DNA of 25,813 nucleotides, taken from positions 1-25,813 of the IMG/VR virus record IMGVR_UViG_3300007520_000071; one strand, given 5' to 3'. The notes below the pieces were generated by a model. The model did not search any database and was not told the DNA's origin. It saw only the letters and a list, made by a program, of their open reading frames with translations. Origin of the DNA: a virus. The translations under genes were made by a program, and so were the position numbers. Below are positions 15,061-25,350 of the stretch, one piece after another (position 1 is the stretch's first letter; the number at the start of each line of letters is the position of its first letter).

Positions 15061-15113
15061 ATATCTTTTATGATAAATATACATAATATAATTAAAATTT
15101 AAATTATAAGCAT

Positions 15114-15144
15114 AAAAAAAAGGGGTTTAAAACCCCTTTTTTTT
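15114..15144 (-). terminator. Bidirectional A8-GGGG...CCCC-T8 terminator after nrdA
   Basis: The arms 15114-15128 and 15130-15144 are perfect 15-bp inverted repeats around one central base. They comprise eight A/T pairs and four G/C pairs, plus an AT core that opens as the loop. A run of U follows the GC stem in both directions. The hairpin overlaps the nrdA stop codon (15143-15145) and separates the nucleotide-metabolism genes from the gp25-like gene. Confidence 0.85.
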
Positions 15145-17509
15145 ATGAACCACAATTATCACAATCAAATTCCGAATTTTCAGCTGAAAACTCTTTATCC
15201 TCTTTGACGTATTTCGTCTTGTCGATAGTGAATTTAATAGCTTCAACAGCTGGTTTATTTCTAAGGTAATACATACCAGTCTTTAAACCCTTCTTCCAAC
15301 CATGGAAATGCATGTTGGTTAATTTTTGGAAATTTGGGTTATCCATAAATATATTCATAGATTGAGATTGACAAATGAACGCACCTCTATCTGCTGATAA
15401 ATCTATAACATCACGTTGTGAAATTTCCCAAACAGTTTTATAAATATCTCTAACATTTTCAGGGATGTCAGTAAAATTAGCTATCGACCCATTACTAATC
15501 ATTAACCTATCTCTCATTTCGTCATCCCATAAACCTAAATTTATTAATGTCAAAATTAAATGTTTATTTACACAAATAAATTCACCTGATAACACACGTC
15601 TAGTGTAAATATTCGTAGTATAAGGTTCGAATGCTTCGTTATTCCCTAGTATTTGAGAAGTACTAGCAGTCGGCATAGGGGCCATTAAAAGTGAGTTACG
15701 GATACCATTCTCAACAACCTCTTTCTTTAACTTATCCCAATCGTACATACCACTAAAAATAGGTTCATCCCATAAATCAAATTGGAAAGTACCCTTACTA
15801 GTCATTGACCCAACAAATGTCTCATAAGGACCATCTACCTTAGCTAATTCCATGGAAGATTCCATGGCTGCGTGATACATAGTCTCAAAAATAGCAGCAT
15901 TTAAAACTTTAGCTTCCTTAGATGTGAAAGGAATCCCCATTATTTGAAACGCATCAGCTAACCCTTGAACACCCAACCCAATTGGTCTATGTTTTTTATT
16001 TGAATACTCAGCCTCAATAACTGGGTAATAATTCCTATCTATAACCTTATTTAGATTTATAGTTATAAGCTTAACAACCTGATGTAATTTCTTATGGTTG
16101 AACACATATTCAAGTTTTTTAGCTTTCCTATCCTTAACCTCAACAAATTTAGGTAAAGCTACTGATGCTAAATTACAAACAGCAACCTCATCTGGTGAAG
16201 TGTATTCAATAATTTCAGTACACAAATTTGAAGAACGAATCGTACCTAAATTATTCTGATTAGATTTTTTATTTGCAGCATCCTTATATAACATATATGG
16301 TGTACCTGTTTCAATTTGAGATTCAAGAATTTTTAACCAAACTTCTTTAGCTTTCACAGTTCTTTTACCTTTACCAGCTTCTTCGTAAGATTTATATAAA
16401 GCCTCAAAATCATCACCGTAAACATCGGCAAGACCTGGACATTCGTTTGGACACATTAAAGTCCAATCACCATCCTCTTGAACACGTTTCATGAATAAAT
16501 CTGGGGTCCACATTGCGTAGAATAAATCCCTAGCTCTCATATCTTCAACACCATGATTCTTTTTTAAATCTAAGAAACTTAAGATATCAGCATGCCAGGG
16601 TTCTATATAAATGGCGAAACTACCTTTTCTTTTACCACCACCTTGGTCAACGTAACGAGCAGTATTGTTAAACACACGTAACATAGGTGTTAGACCGTTT
16701 GAAACCCCATTAGTCCCAGCAATGTAAGAACCTGTAGCTCTTATGTTATGTATTGCTAAACCAATACCCCCAGCAGATTGTGAAATCAAAGCTGTTTGTT
16801 TTAAAGTATCATAAATACCTTCAATACTATCATTTTTCATCGTTAATAAGAAACAAGATGACATTTGAGGTTTTGGTGTTCCAGCGTTAAACAATGTAGG
16901 TGTTGCGTGTGTAAAATACTTCTCACTCATTAAGTTATACGTTTCTATCGCTGATTCAACATCACCACCATGAATACCTAAAGAAACACGCATTAACATG
17001 TGTTGTGGTCTTTCAACTACTTTCCCATCTATTTTTAAAAGGTATGACTTCTCTAAAGTTTTAAAACCAAAATAATCATAACTAAAATCCCTATCGTTTA
17101 TAATCGCAGAATTTAAAACTTTAGTATTTTTCTTAACAACCTCATATAACTCATCACTAATTAATGGTGAATGTTTACCATTTTTATCATTTATATAGGA
17201 ATATAATTTTTCAATTGTCTTACTGAAAAATTTCTCAGTGCTTTTATGTAATGCGGTTATCTCAATTCTAGAAGCTAGTAAAGAATAATCTGGGTGGTGG
17301 GATACTAAAGCTCCAGCTGTTTCAGATGCAAGTCTATCTAACTCAATAGTTGTAACACCATCATAAAGACCATCTATAACTTTTTTTGAGACTTCATCAT
17401 GGTCAACATATAATGTGTCTAAACCATAACATAATTTTTTAATTCTGGTACTAATTTTATTGAAGTTCACATCTTCTTTAGTAATACCATCTCTTTTTAC
17501 TACTTTCAT
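15143..17509 (-). CDS. nrdA: Ribonucleoside-diphosphate reductase class Ia, large (alpha) subunit
   Basis: This 788-residue protein has full class I NrdA length. Residues 1-90 form an ATP-cone ('[20 protein letters not shown]'), implying allosteric activity control by ATP/dATP. Catalytic residues are in place: Cys219 ('MSSCF') and Cys445 ('VAVCN') as the redox pair, Asn428-Leu-Cys430-Thr-Glu432 as the thiyl-radical centre, and Tyr747-Tyr748 for radical transfer. The C-terminal tail ends 'CDNCGS' (Cys783, Cys786), the thioredoxin/glutaredoxin-accessible pair. The conserved '[20 protein letters not shown]' block starts at 611. The protein reduces ribonucleoside diphosphates with NrdB to supply dNTPs for replication. 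There is no intein or intron, although phage nrd genes often carry them. The gene lies 90 bases downstream of nrdB, with a 34-bp palindrome between. Confidence 0.97.
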
Positions 17510-17546: not shown

Positions 17547-17580
17547 ATGTGGTTAGGGTGAATATTCACCCTAACCACAT
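17547..17580 (-). terminator. 34-bp perfect gapless palindrome between nrdB and nrdA
   Basis: Bases 17547-17563 and 17564-17580 are perfect reverse complements with no spacer; the core is 'GGTGAATATTCACC'. As RNA this forms a hairpin of about 15 bp. On the minus strand it is not followed by a U-run (ATTAATTATAAG follows), so a classical intrinsic terminator is doubtful. An RNase processing site or a dyad operator are alternatives. It lies 20 bases past the nrdB stop. Confidence 0.5.
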
Positions 17581-18606: not shown

Positions 18607-19071
18607 TTAACTTTCTTTAATTTTCTTACTAGCATCCATAATCAACTTAACCCTATCTAAATCCCTAGAATTTTTATCAAAAGTATTTTGTAAGAACGTT
18701 TTAGATTCTTGCTCAACAATCTCAATTTGAACTCTTGAATTATCAAAAATGCAATCACTCAACACAATACCATCCTTACCAAATCTAGATTTAAGTATTG
18801 CTAAATTAGCGTGACCACTATCTTTTTGCTCATTACTTCTAGCAACTGAAACTATGAAATGCCCAATTTGCGCTTTCTTAATCGAACCACCCATTTGGTC
18901 TGACTCAACAACCTCAGCTTTAATTGAACTATTATGCGTATAAATATCATTAGCGTAAAACATATGTGTATCATCTACTGTTATATCGATAGTGTCTTCA
19001 TAACCAATTAACTCAATACTTTCAATCTCATCTAAATCAAAATCTTCTAAATTTAATTTATGTTCTTCCAT
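18607..19071 (-). CDS. Replicative helicase (DnaB/gp41-like), C-terminal piece led by the C-half of a split intein
   Basis: This 154-residue protein has two parts. Residues 1-47 are a C-intein ending '[11 protein letters not shown]'. Residues 48-154 are the C-extein, beginning Ser-Ser and continuing '[20 protein letters not shown]', then 'LKSRFGKDG', which fits the last RecA-fold motifs and arginine-finger region of DnaB-family helicases. Alone it cannot be a helicase. It must be joined to the upstream ORF product after Arg710 by protein trans-splicing, restoring 'QGNR-SS'. An in-frame stop lies only 15 bases upstream of the ATG (19087-19089) and the preceding ORF is in another frame, so the break is real as the sequence stands. 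It probably has its own start site; AAAGGG precedes the ATG by about 12 bases. nrdB follows after 17 bases. Confidence 0.88.
18931..19071 (-). other. C-half of a naturally split intein (47 residues)
   Basis: The segment MEEHKLNL... to 'YANDIYTHN' carries the intein C-terminal block: hydrophobic '[15 protein letters not shown]', 'FYAN', and terminal His-Asn followed by Ser(+1). Length, break point and sequence resemble, from memory, the gp41-8 split-intein C-half known from marine viral metagenomes ('DEIASIEYVGVEETIDINV'). Its partner is the N-half at 19121-19390. Confidence 0.88.
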
Positions 19072-19117
19072 ACATACTCTAACCCTTTATTATTAACCAT
19101 TTTAAAACATTATTAAA

Positions 19118-21520
19118 TTATTTTTTAATTAGTAACTTAACACCAATACTTAAACCACTTTCAATTGAACTCAAAACCCCATCTGATGTTGGGAAGAAAT
19201 GTTTTTTACTCACTTTAATTTCCTTACCAGATTTTAATTTTATCTTATACACTGGTTGCTTTTGAATTGGGAAAATATGTGATACCATTTTGTAACCATC
19301 TTTAGTTAAAATTTTATCATTTAACACCACATCTTTTATCTCAATAGTACCTTTACCCTCAATATCCACCTTAGTGTCAAGTGCAACACAACGATTACCT
19401 TGTACTGCTGTCCATCCAGCCATATCAAACTCATTTAACATGGTTTCAAATTCTCTCATTACTCTACCTTCACCAACATTAGTATCATCTACTTTTCTTG
19501 ATGGTTCAACACAGTCGATATAGTCAATTAAAATCATGTCTGGTCTAAAACCGTTAGCTATTAATTTCCTAACCATTAGTTTTATCTTAGCTATCGTGAT
19601 ATTATCACTATTCATTTTTAACAACCTAAGTTCACCACCAGCTTCTAAATTACTAATAACGGTTTTCTTTACTAATTCTTTATGATTAGATAACTCATTT
19701 AACTCTATATTGGTCCAACAAGCGTAGTGTTTACGTTGTATGACCTTCTCATTATCTTCAAAAAATATTTGTAAAACGTTAAAACCTTGATTTAGAGCAC
19801 TGTTAGCTATCTTGGTAATCATAGTTGTGTTATGTGTAACAATAAAATCGTCAGTAACGAATAGTTGTTCCACATTATCAACCATTATACAAGTGGCTTC
19901 TTCTTTATGTGAATATTCAATCGATTTGATAAATTTACCGCTATTATAAATACCCCCAGTAATGAGAAGTTCATTTTTTCTAGCTAATTTAAATGGTTTT
20001 ATTTTATTTTCACTTGGGAATGATATGATTAATACATAAGCTTCCCAACCAACCTTCTTAACACCATCGTAACTGTAGTTAGGTGTTCCGATAGATAATT
20101 CACAAAAACCACCTAAAGATAATACTAACCATTTAACATCATCAATTAATTTTTTTGAAACGCTAACGTACTCGATACTACCATTTTTATTCACATTACC
20201 ATCAGCATCTAACAAACCTCTAAGTATTTCTAACCTATTAGTTTTTGAATTATGAAGATAACTAATAGGTATGAATTTATTATTAGATTTTTTATTATAT
20301 AAACTTAACGATTTTAATTTATCGGTAATACCATGAATAGAAACATGAGATAAACATTCTTTAACTAAGACATCATCTTTATCAATATCTAAACATTTTT
20401 CCTTTATGGATATAACACCACACATTAACCTACTAACCTCATTAACAACTTCTAAATCCTTACTAGTAAACGTAGACGACTTCATATTACCATCACGTAG
20501 CATTACACCTAAAACATATGGGTCAATTGGTAATTCTTGTTCGTTAAACTCAATTGGTTCAACCATTGGGATTTTAAAATTCAAATCTTTTCCAGTCCCG
20601 AAAGTTAAATTATTGATTAGTTCAGAAGTTTTAACTACTTTAAATGAGTTATCAACTTTACAAGATGAGTGATTACGTTGGTCATTAGAATTGACCGCCC
20701 ATAAATGTTCCTCATCACAAAAAGTACTGGTAGTATCATTAAAAGTAATTTTGAATATTGGTCGAATACCTTGTGGGTAGACACCAATAACATTTGTCTC
20801 CTTACCATTTCTACCAAATACTTTATCACCAACATTAATAGACCCCATTAACTTAAACCCTTCTGGTGTGTAAATTTTATTTGAATTAGGTAAAGCTTTA
20901 CCAACACCAAAAGGAGCTAATATAATCCCTAGTTCAGTTTTAGCTAAACCACCATTCATGTATTCATCAAAACCTTTAATACCAGTCGCTATTGGGTTTC
21001 TAAAGTCGTCAGCTAGAACGCCATCAATATCATTATCTAATTGAATACTAAAATCTTTATTTTCCCCAACTGAAAGTGCTTTCTTTAGTATAACCTCACA
21101 CTCATCATACTCCTCATAATCACCTCTTTCTAGTATTACGTTTATTTCAGAAACAGATTTTTTCAAAGCTTGCTGCTTACAGAATTTCATAGCTATTTCT
21201 TGAACCTTGAAGCTATCATTATAGTTAACATCTTTGATTTTATTTAACTGACCTATTGCGAAGTCTCTCTGTATTGTATTACTTAATCTTTCTTTCAATC
21301 TAAACTCTAAACTTTCAAAGTCTGGTATAACTTGATGAGTATTATAAGCATTTTTAATCTCAACAGCTATTAGTTTTAGGTATTCATCACCAAAAAAGTT
21401 AACATCTATAATGTCTAATATATCGTTAGCGAATTTTTTATCAGTTATTAGTTGAGCTATCAGCCTTAACTGATAGTCCTCACCTAAAAAACCTAGATTA
21501 TCTTTTTCTACTCTAGACAT
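19118..21520 (-). CDS. Replicative helicase (DnaB/gp41-like), N-terminal piece with an internal intein and a terminal N-intein half
   Basis: This 800-residue ORF contains, in order: the helicase N-terminal domain and linker (1-190); the Walker A start 'LAPFGVGK' (201-208); a 356-residue intein (209-564); the rest of the RecA-type ATPase domain (565-710) resuming 'TTMITKIANSALNQGFNVLQ', with Walker B 'DMILIDYID' (661-669) and motif 'WTAVQGNR'; and an N-intein half (711-800) that runs to the stop. After both splicing events, with the 107-residue C-extein from the next ORF, the mature helicase would be about 461 residues, near T4 gp41 (475). It should unwind DNA 5'-3' at the phage fork as a hexamer. 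Because Walker A itself is interrupted, the unspliced protein should be inactive as an ATPase. The gene begins 9 bases after the 21530-22024 gene. Confidence 0.93.
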   Translation of the reverse strand: MSRVEKDNLGFLGEDYQLRLIAQLITDKKFANDILDIIDVNFFGDEYLKLIAVEIKNAYNTHQVIPDFESLEFRLKERLSNTIQRDFAIGQLNKIKDVNYNDSFKVQEIAMKFCKQQALKKSVSEINVILERGDYEEYDECEVILKKALSVGENKDFSIQLDNDIDGVLADDFRNPIATGIKGFDEYMNGGLAKTELGIILAPFGVGKALPNSNKIYTPEGFKLMGSINVGDKVFGRNGKETNVIGVYPQGIRPIFKITFNDTTSTFCDEEHLWAVNSNDQRNHSSCKVDNSFKVVKTSELINNLTFGTGKDLNFKIPMVEPIEFNEQELPIDPYVLGVMLRDGNMKSSTFTSKDLEVVNEVSRLMCGVISIKEKCLDIDKDDVLVKECLSHVSIHGITDKLKSLSLYNKKSNNKFIPISYLHNSKTNRLEILRGLLDADGNVNKNGSIEYVSVSKKLIDDVKWLVLSLGGFCELSIGTPNYSYDGVKKVGWEAYVLIISFPSENKIKPFKLARKNELLITGGIYNSGKFIKSIEYSHKEEATCIMVDNVEQLFVTDDFIVTHNTTMITKIANSALNQGFNVLQIFFEDNEKVIQRKHYACWTNIELNELSNHKELVKKTVISNLEAGGELRLLKMNSDNITIAKIKLMVRKLIANGFRPDMILIDYIDCVEPSRKVDDTNVGEGRVMREFETMLNEFDMAGWTAVQGNRCVALDTKVDIEGKGTIEIKDVVLNDKILTKDGYKMVSHIFPIQKQPVYKIKLKSGKEIKVSKKHFFPTSDGVLSSIESGLSIGVKLLIKK
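19121..19390 (-). other. N-half of a naturally split intein (90 residues)
   Basis: Residues 711-800 of the ORF begin with Cys1 ('CVALDTKV') right after the helicase motif 'QGNR'. They carry block A, block B ('QPVYKIKLKSGKEIKV', 'KKHFFPT') and end 'SIGVKLLIKK' at the stop. No C-terminal intein blocks follow in this frame. The resemblance to the gp41-8 N-half ('QPVFEIVLKSGKKIRVS', from memory) is strong. Together with 18931-19071 it makes a 137-residue intein without an endonuclease domain. Confidence 0.88.
19829..20896 (-). other. Full-length LAGLIDADG intein inserted in Walker A of the helicase
   Basis: Residues 209-564 interrupt 'GVGK-TT'. The N-terminal block is 'ALPNSNKIYTPEG' with 'INVGDKVFG', followed by 'RPIFKITFND' and 'FCDEEHLWAV'. 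The C-terminal block is 'LFVTDDFIVTHN' followed by Thr(+1). Position 1 is therefore Ala, not Cys or Ser. Between them sit two dodecapeptide motifs of a LAGLIDADG homing endonuclease: 'LGVMLRDG' (337-344) and 'LRGLLDADG' (433-441). Both keep the catalytic Asp, but the first has Arg where Gly is usual. Splicing by direct attack of the +1 residue, as in other Ala1 inteins, is inferred. Confidence 0.9.
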
Positions 21521-22028: not shown

Positions 22029-23078
22029 CTAATTTTTGTTAAACATTTTTTTTTCTCTCTCAATCAATCTATTAAATGGTATTAAGTATTCTGAAACATC
22101 AGAAAATTTCTTATCAATACCATCTCTTCTCATTAAATTAATAACGTTCTTAACACCCCTGTTTTGTGGGTCAATAACACCATTTTTTAATATTTCTAAT
22201 TTATTAATACCACTCAAAGTAATTTGAGGCGTGGTTAAATCAACTAGAAGTTTATTAATTTTATAAATATCCTTTCCTTGTATCCCATCTGTAACGCTAT
22301 TGATTAAATTATCAAATACTTTTAATGGTTTCTTTTTCTCCACTAATCTTTGATTCTGTAATTTTTTAGCATCATTAATAATCTCAACTAAGGTGCAACT
22401 TCTTTCAGCTATAAACGGAAAGTACTTTAAAAGTGAAGGTTCTTTAACTCCTTTGATACCTTTAATATTATCACTATTATCACCACTGATGATTTTAACT
22501 AAAGCTGAATTTGTATGGTGATGTTTAAAAAACTCATTATAATTACAAACTGAGACATATCTTTTCTTATCACATAAATAAATCGTAATATCAGTATCTA
22601 TTAATTGACATAAATCTCTATCATTAGTGCATATAGTTATTTTCTCATTTAATCCTTTAGTTTTACAAAAATACGAAATAAAATCATCACTTTCAACTAT
22701 TTCATCCTCTAATTGTCTAATAAATAATTCTTCTAGGTACTCTTGAACTATCAAACGTTGTAATATTTGGTCCTTATCATCTGGTATTGTACCATTTATA
22801 TAATCTTTATTCCGATTACCTTTGTAATCGGAATAAAGATTATATCTTAATTTACCACTAAATTTACCATCCCAAAAGACGAAAACTCTATCATAATACT
22901 TCTCATCGATTAACTTTCTCATGATGACCACAAATTGGTAAATACCCCCTATAGTCCTCCCATCATCGTTATAATCGTTTATAGCACCATGATAACCCGT
23001 TTTAAACAGAGCGTTACCATCTATTAGTAATGTTTTAATTTCTTTCCCAAGATTATCTTTTCTAGGTGCTCTTCTCAT
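22029..23078 (-). CDS. FEN-family 5'-3' exonuclease, T4 RNase H-like
   Basis: This 349-residue protein carries the acidic metal-site motifs of the 5' nuclease superfamily: 'LLIDGNAL' (Asp20), 'VFVFWDG' (Asp70), the arch region 'YSDYKGNRNKDY' (82-93), 'ESDD' (129-132), 'CTNDRDL' (Asp153, Asp155) and the helix-hairpin-helix entry 'SGDNSDNIKGIKGV' (198-211). T4 RNase H (305 residues) removes RNA primers and adjacent DNA from lagging-strand fragments, and the same role is expected here. The C-terminal 100 or so residues are less conserved. The gene starts 5 bases after uvsX and ends 4 bases before the next gene, so it is operonic. A 22-bp perfect inverted repeat lies inside the codons for the arch motif. 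Confidence 0.92.
   Translation of the reverse strand: MRRAPRKDNLGKEIKTLLIDGNALFKTGYHGAINDYNDDGRTIGGIYQFVVIMRKLIDEKYYDRVFVFWDGKFSGKLRYNLYSDYKGNRNKDYINGTIPDDKDQILQRLIVQEYLEELFIRQLEDEIVESDDFISYFCKTKGLNEKITICTNDRDLCQLIDTDITIYLCDKKRYVSVCNYNEFFKHHHTNSALVKIISGDNSDNIKGIKGVKEPSLLKYFPFIAERSCTLVEIINDAKKLQNQRLVEKKKPLKVFDNLINSVTDGIQGKDIYKINKLLVDLTTPQITLSGINKLEILKNGVIDPQNRGVKNVINLMRRDGIDKKFSDVSEYLIPFNRLIEREKKMFNKN
22798..22845 (-). repeat. Perfect 22-bp inverted repeat with 4-base loop inside the exonuclease gene
   Basis: The arms 22798-22819 and 22824-22845 are exact reverse complements, separated by 'CTTT'. The 48 bases encode part of the conserved arch motif ('YNLYSDYKGNRNKDYI'), so the structure is superimposed on functional codons. 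The hairpin would be among the strongest in the window, in DNA or in mRNA. Confidence 0.9.
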
Positions 23079-24234: not shown

Positions 24235-24270
24235 AAATAAGGTAAAACCATATATGGTTTTACCTTATTT
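24235..24270 (-). terminator. 36-bp perfect palindrome between the ssDNA-binding gene and uvsX
   Basis: The arms 24235-24252 and 24253-24270 are exact reverse complements with no spacer (core 'AACCATATATGGTT'). The structure lies 18 bases past the ssb stop and 44 bases before the uvsX start. On the minus strand AT-rich sequence with short U-runs follows the stem. It is probably a terminator or attenuator that lets the ssDNA-binding protein be made in excess over the downstream genes. Confidence 0.65.
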
Positions 24271-25276: not shown

Positions 25277-25294
25277 GTTAATGAAATAAGATAT

Positions 25295-25324
25295 AAAAAA
25301 AACCGCTATTTAGCGGTTTTTTTT
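25295..25324 (-). terminator. Rho-independent terminator after the 25351-25813 gene
   Basis: The arms 25295-25308 and 25311-25324 are perfect 14-bp inverted repeats: A8 then CCGCTA, and TAGCGG then T8. On the minus strand the GC stem is followed by eight U. It sits 26 bases past the stop at 25351 and before the ssb promoter region, so it ends the upstream transcript. Confidence 0.85.
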
Positions 25325-25350
25325 AATATATGTAGTATTTTTTTTACTTA

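Follow-up and report, generated by a model that had tools for sequence, protein, structure and literature searches.

The perfect 22-bp inverted repeat located inside a 5'-3' exonuclease gene of an uncultivated phage is probably the footprint of quasipalindrome-templated mutation, i.e., the homogenisation of one arm on the other by template switching. The repeat lies in a 25,813-nt stretch of viral DNA (hereafter the window, positions 1 to 25,813 of IMG/VR record IMGVR_UViG_3300007520_000071), the features of which are listed in Table 1. Our analysis suggests that the hairpin is real and statistically extreme, and that it is best read as a mark left by a mutational process that is already known, and not as a conserved control element.

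Table 1. Coordinates of the exonuclease hairpin and of other features of the window.
Feature	Position	Strand	Remarks
5'-3' exonuclease / FEN-like nuclease gene	22029..23078	-	349 aa; Pfam PF02739 (5_3_exonuc_N), E 2.3e-26; PHROG 107
Perfect inverted repeat	22798-22845		22-nt arms, 100% complementary, 4-nt loop
Left arm	22798..22819	+	Encodes motif 3' half NRNKDYI; putative source (template) arm
Loop	22820..22823	+	CTTT on + / AAAG in mRNA; Lys86 codon and first base of Gly87 codon
Right arm	22824..22845	+	Encodes motif 5' half YNLYSDY; putative recipient arm
13-bp perfect inverted repeat in nrdA	17053-17065 and 17112-17124	-	46-nt spacer, coding
Intergenic perfect palindromes/hairpins (four)	24235-24270, 17547-17580, 15111-15147, 25294-25325		15-18 bp
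DnaB-like helicase gene	18607-21520		Two apparent intein insertions
Helicase intein one	about 19833-20896		LAGLIDADG domain
Helicase intein two	end of ORF 19118-21520 and start of ORF 18607-19071		Halves in separate ORFs, 46 nt apart; split-intein-like

The hairpin occupies codons 78-94 of the exonuclease gene, where its 48 nt encode YNLYSDYKGNRNKDYI, and in the mRNA sense it reads AUAUAAUCUUUAUUCCGAUUAC-AAAG-GUAAUCGGAAUAAAGAUUAUAU. The sequence-only reading of this DNA had described flawless arms around a 4-base loop, and they are indeed fully complementary. The predicted fold reaches -27.7 kcal/mol (z -10.6) as RNA and about -20 kcal/mol as DNA on either strand. Solved relatives of the exonuclease include the 5' nuclease domain of Taq polymerase and a phage-type 5'-exonuclease, and in alignment the segment encoded by the hairpin falls on the FEN-type YKxxR stretch of that polymerase. 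The claim that the hairpin overlaps a conserved motif is borne out by residues Y82, Y85, K86, R89, K91 and D92, which are invariant in a nine-sequence alignment; by analogy with FEN nucleases in general, this motif would correspond to the "arch".

Chance formation of the stem had been called very unlikely from the sequence, and two calculations agree. The 19 main ORFs of the window were shuffled synonymously 1,000 times, each shuffle keeping the protein and its codon usage; among perfect stems with loops of 3-10 nt, the longest coding stem per shuffle was 7-13 bp and never exceeded 13 bp; the second-longest real stem in these ORFs is 9 bp. When the residues were fixed and codons were sampled according to window usage, about 14 of the 22 positions paired on average, so the motif alone yields much of the pairing, but all 22 paired in none of 2 million samples. 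The exonuclease stem is also the longest perfect hairpin in approximately 602 kb of non-redundant DNA (window and relatives), where five hairpins of at least 14 bp lie inside open frames of at least 150 codons and the runner-up has 15 bp. That codon choice over a self-complementary protein motif arrived at the stem by chance, with no special process involved, is thus extremely improbable. We regard an assembly or amplification artefact as equally implausible. The contig is metagenomic and fold-back artefacts exist, but the same 48 bases occur unchanged in a second IMG/VR contig of 76 kb (L001, possibly from the same sample), which differs from the window at 2 of 25,756 bases, neither of them at the hairpin. 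Moreover, the reading frame stays open across the hairpin and a quasi-palindromic version is present in a relative, L002. The hairpin therefore looks real.

L002 is the only relative between 61% and 100% amino-acid identity that the IMG/VR scans returned, with no intermediates found; relatives in named phage genomes reach only ~24-30% identity, and a scan of genome contigs found no relative. Its exonuclease gene is 89% identical to that of the window in amino acids and 85% in DNA. At the hairpin site L002 carries a quasi-palindrome with 18 of 22 Watson-Crick pairs, three G-U pairs and one mismatch, which is predicted to fold at -18.9 kcal/mol as RNA (21/22 pairs counting G-U). Four bases in the arms separate the two sequences, three of them in the right arm (window versus L002 codons AAT/GAT, CTT/ATT and TCC/TCT) and one in the left (AAA versus AAG), and none is a compensatory change between the arms. 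All three window states in the right arm are complementary to the left arm. In the direction from L002 to the window, two of these changes alter residues (D->N and I->L) and the third, TCT to TCC, gives a rare codon.

Polarity was read from present-day outgroup states at single sites. L003 and L004, the nearest outgroups after L002 in the tree, both read GAA ATT where the two nonsynonymous changes lie and so share G and A with L002; among 119 distant homologues, G is found in 83 and A in 91, while AAT and CTT occur in 22 and 10, respectively. The window states at these two sites thus look derived, as polarised by distant outgroups (tree distance >1), a comparison by which Ser83 cannot be polarised. 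At the fourth site, AAA is the commoner state (91/119), so the AAG of L002 probably arose in L002 itself. Codon usage was compared as well. TCC and CTT, both uncommon in the window (3.2% of Ser and 11% of Leu codons), lie in the putative recipient arm and are the exact complement of the other arm, and the CGG codon of the left arm (1.1% of window Arg codons), to which the TCC is complementary, is common to L002 and therefore predates the split of the two phages.

Quasipalindrome template switching was first proposed by Ripley in 1982 from phage T4 rII (PMC8604942; PMC7202029). The growing strand folds on itself and takes the newly made arm as its template, and several differences vanish together, leaving the repeat perfect (PMC7202029; PMC8604942; PMC8794818). 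In the exonuclease gene, the motif YxxYxDYKxNRNKDY would already have rendered the flanks of the loop partly complementary, giving a quasi-palindrome of the kind that L002 still carries. The nascent strand, for which the geometry fits the window + strand, would have copied the left arm during replication and folded back, and this arm would have replaced the true template for synthesis of the right arm before a switch back. With the + strand nascent, the left arm would be made first and could template the changed right arm. One such event may have changed the three bases, two of them with residue replacement, and left the perfect 22-bp repeat; copying between sister molecules would give an identical product. 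As the family varies at the two replaced residues, these replacements could have been tolerated. We infer a single event, its strand and its timing, as well as the absence of a function. The sequence-only reading had closed its list of options with a recent templated mutation in which one arm served as the model for the other, and this option fits best.

The case resembles the quasipalindrome mutations of T4 rII, E. coli thyA, yeast (PMC8604942) and reporter constructs (PMC7202029) in that an imperfect repeat in a relative, here L002, stands beside a perfect one, and in that the changes are concentrated in one arm (three of the four differences, each creating complementarity) and copy the other arm, within coding sequence and with amino-acid replacements. 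In yeast, significant arm homogenisation was found in 30 genes, with arms of 16 bp at most (PMC8604942), whereas the window arm is longer at 22 bp. Unlike those systems, the comparison here is between natural metagenomic phages with no known parent-offspring pair, from which one event is deduced. Template switching in RNA stems can likewise generate a perfect hairpin by a single event or mend an existing stem (PMC8794818), but those stems belong to functional RNA genes, while no conserved RNA structure is seen in the exonuclease family. The palindromes of Nematomorpha mitochondria are also perfect repeats and also lie within the coding sequence of functional proteins; species differ in their gain and loss, for which template switching was proposed. 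They are numerous and reach 284 bp, whereas the exonuclease hairpin is a single repeat of 22 bp (PMC6649704).

Several inverted repeats other than the exonuclease hairpin were noted in the window. In the nrdA repeat, all five differences from L002 fall in one arm and none in the other, which makes this repeat another, though weaker, candidate for a templated origin; the pattern may also be due to chance. Of the four intergenic palindromes, three were called terminator-like. All four differ from L002 in both arms, unlike the mostly one-sided exonuclease hairpin.

The pairing retained by L002 bears on when the hairpin arose and whether it is selected. It exceeds the expectation from protein and codon usage (P 0.003 for 18 Watson-Crick pairs, P 0.0001 for 21 with G-U), so the hairpin may predate the split or be weakly selected, and the three transitions of L002 are all G-U-pairable in the mRNA sense, which would occur by chance roughly 1 in 8 times. 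The templated event could have preceded the split, with the perfect hairpin ancestral and lost from L002 by ordinary substitution, as four changes in 44 arm bases are compatible with ordinary divergence (15% for the gene); we consider this order of events rather unlikely, since L002 would have had to regain the G and A found in both L003 and L004 and in the majority of homologues. A selected RNA (or DNA) hairpin confined to the lineage of the window, L001 and L002, serving for instance as a translational pause before the remaining nuclease domain or in mRNA protection or processing, would account for the stability of the L002 fold, but it is also unlikely. The pairing is absent from the 119 more distant homologues, although these share the motif, pairing in the family is no higher than at shifted registers, the four differences include two nonsynonymous and no compensatory ones, and synonymous divergence between the window and L002 is not reduced at the hairpin (17% of 16-codon stretches have two or fewer synonymous changes). 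It is more doubtful still that a lineage-specific mRNA hairpin, kept by repeated template switching together with weak selection, regulates the translation or stability of the exonuclease message.

Specific functional elements were searched for as well. An intrinsic terminator was rejected, as the coding strand reads AAATGGTACAA after the stem with no U-tract and the terminator scan calls the + strand alone, which is not the strand of the gene. Rfam matches were all sub-threshold and mostly miRNA-like, which discards a known RNA family. The arms are unique, without copies elsewhere in the window at up to 3 mismatches and without exact copies in IMG/VR outside the near-identical contig L001, so a mobile repeat or multi-copy binding site was dismissed. 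The suggested roles in RNA processing, attenuation, pausing, protein binding or as an origin gained no support, given the missing U-tract, the unique arms, the lack of an Rfam match above threshold and the unpaired homologues.

These 119 homologues (<80% identity; about 45-59% in amino acids) retain the YKxxR motif, and their hairpin positions pair at a mean of 9.3 of 22 and a maximum of 16. The mean excess over the expectation from their own residues and codon usage is 0.30 +- 0.12 sd and falls inside the range of 24 controls shifted by 1-12 bases (-0.80 to +0.48 sd), which indicates no clear family-wide structure; a structure of this kind was accordingly rejected, and pairing with compensatory change is not kept in this set. 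Relatives with the same motif and no pairing are one of the two observations that the sequence-only reading had named as evidence against its proposal, and these 119 homologues provide it. One distant homologue, L176, has a quasi-palindrome of its own in the codons homologous to the hairpin (16 Watson-Crick and 4 G-U pairs, using CCC and CGG), with a P of 0.002 that is unremarkable among 94 tested.

In the DnaB-like helicase gene, both apparent intein stretches are skipped in the alignment of L002 with the window.

As a footprint of apparent templated mutation in protein-coding DNA of an uncultivated phage, the exonuclease hairpin is unusually long and clean. If this reading is true, templated events can replace amino acids beside the invariant residues of a replication and repair nuclease, and a striking hairpin in coding sequence need not be a regulatory element.
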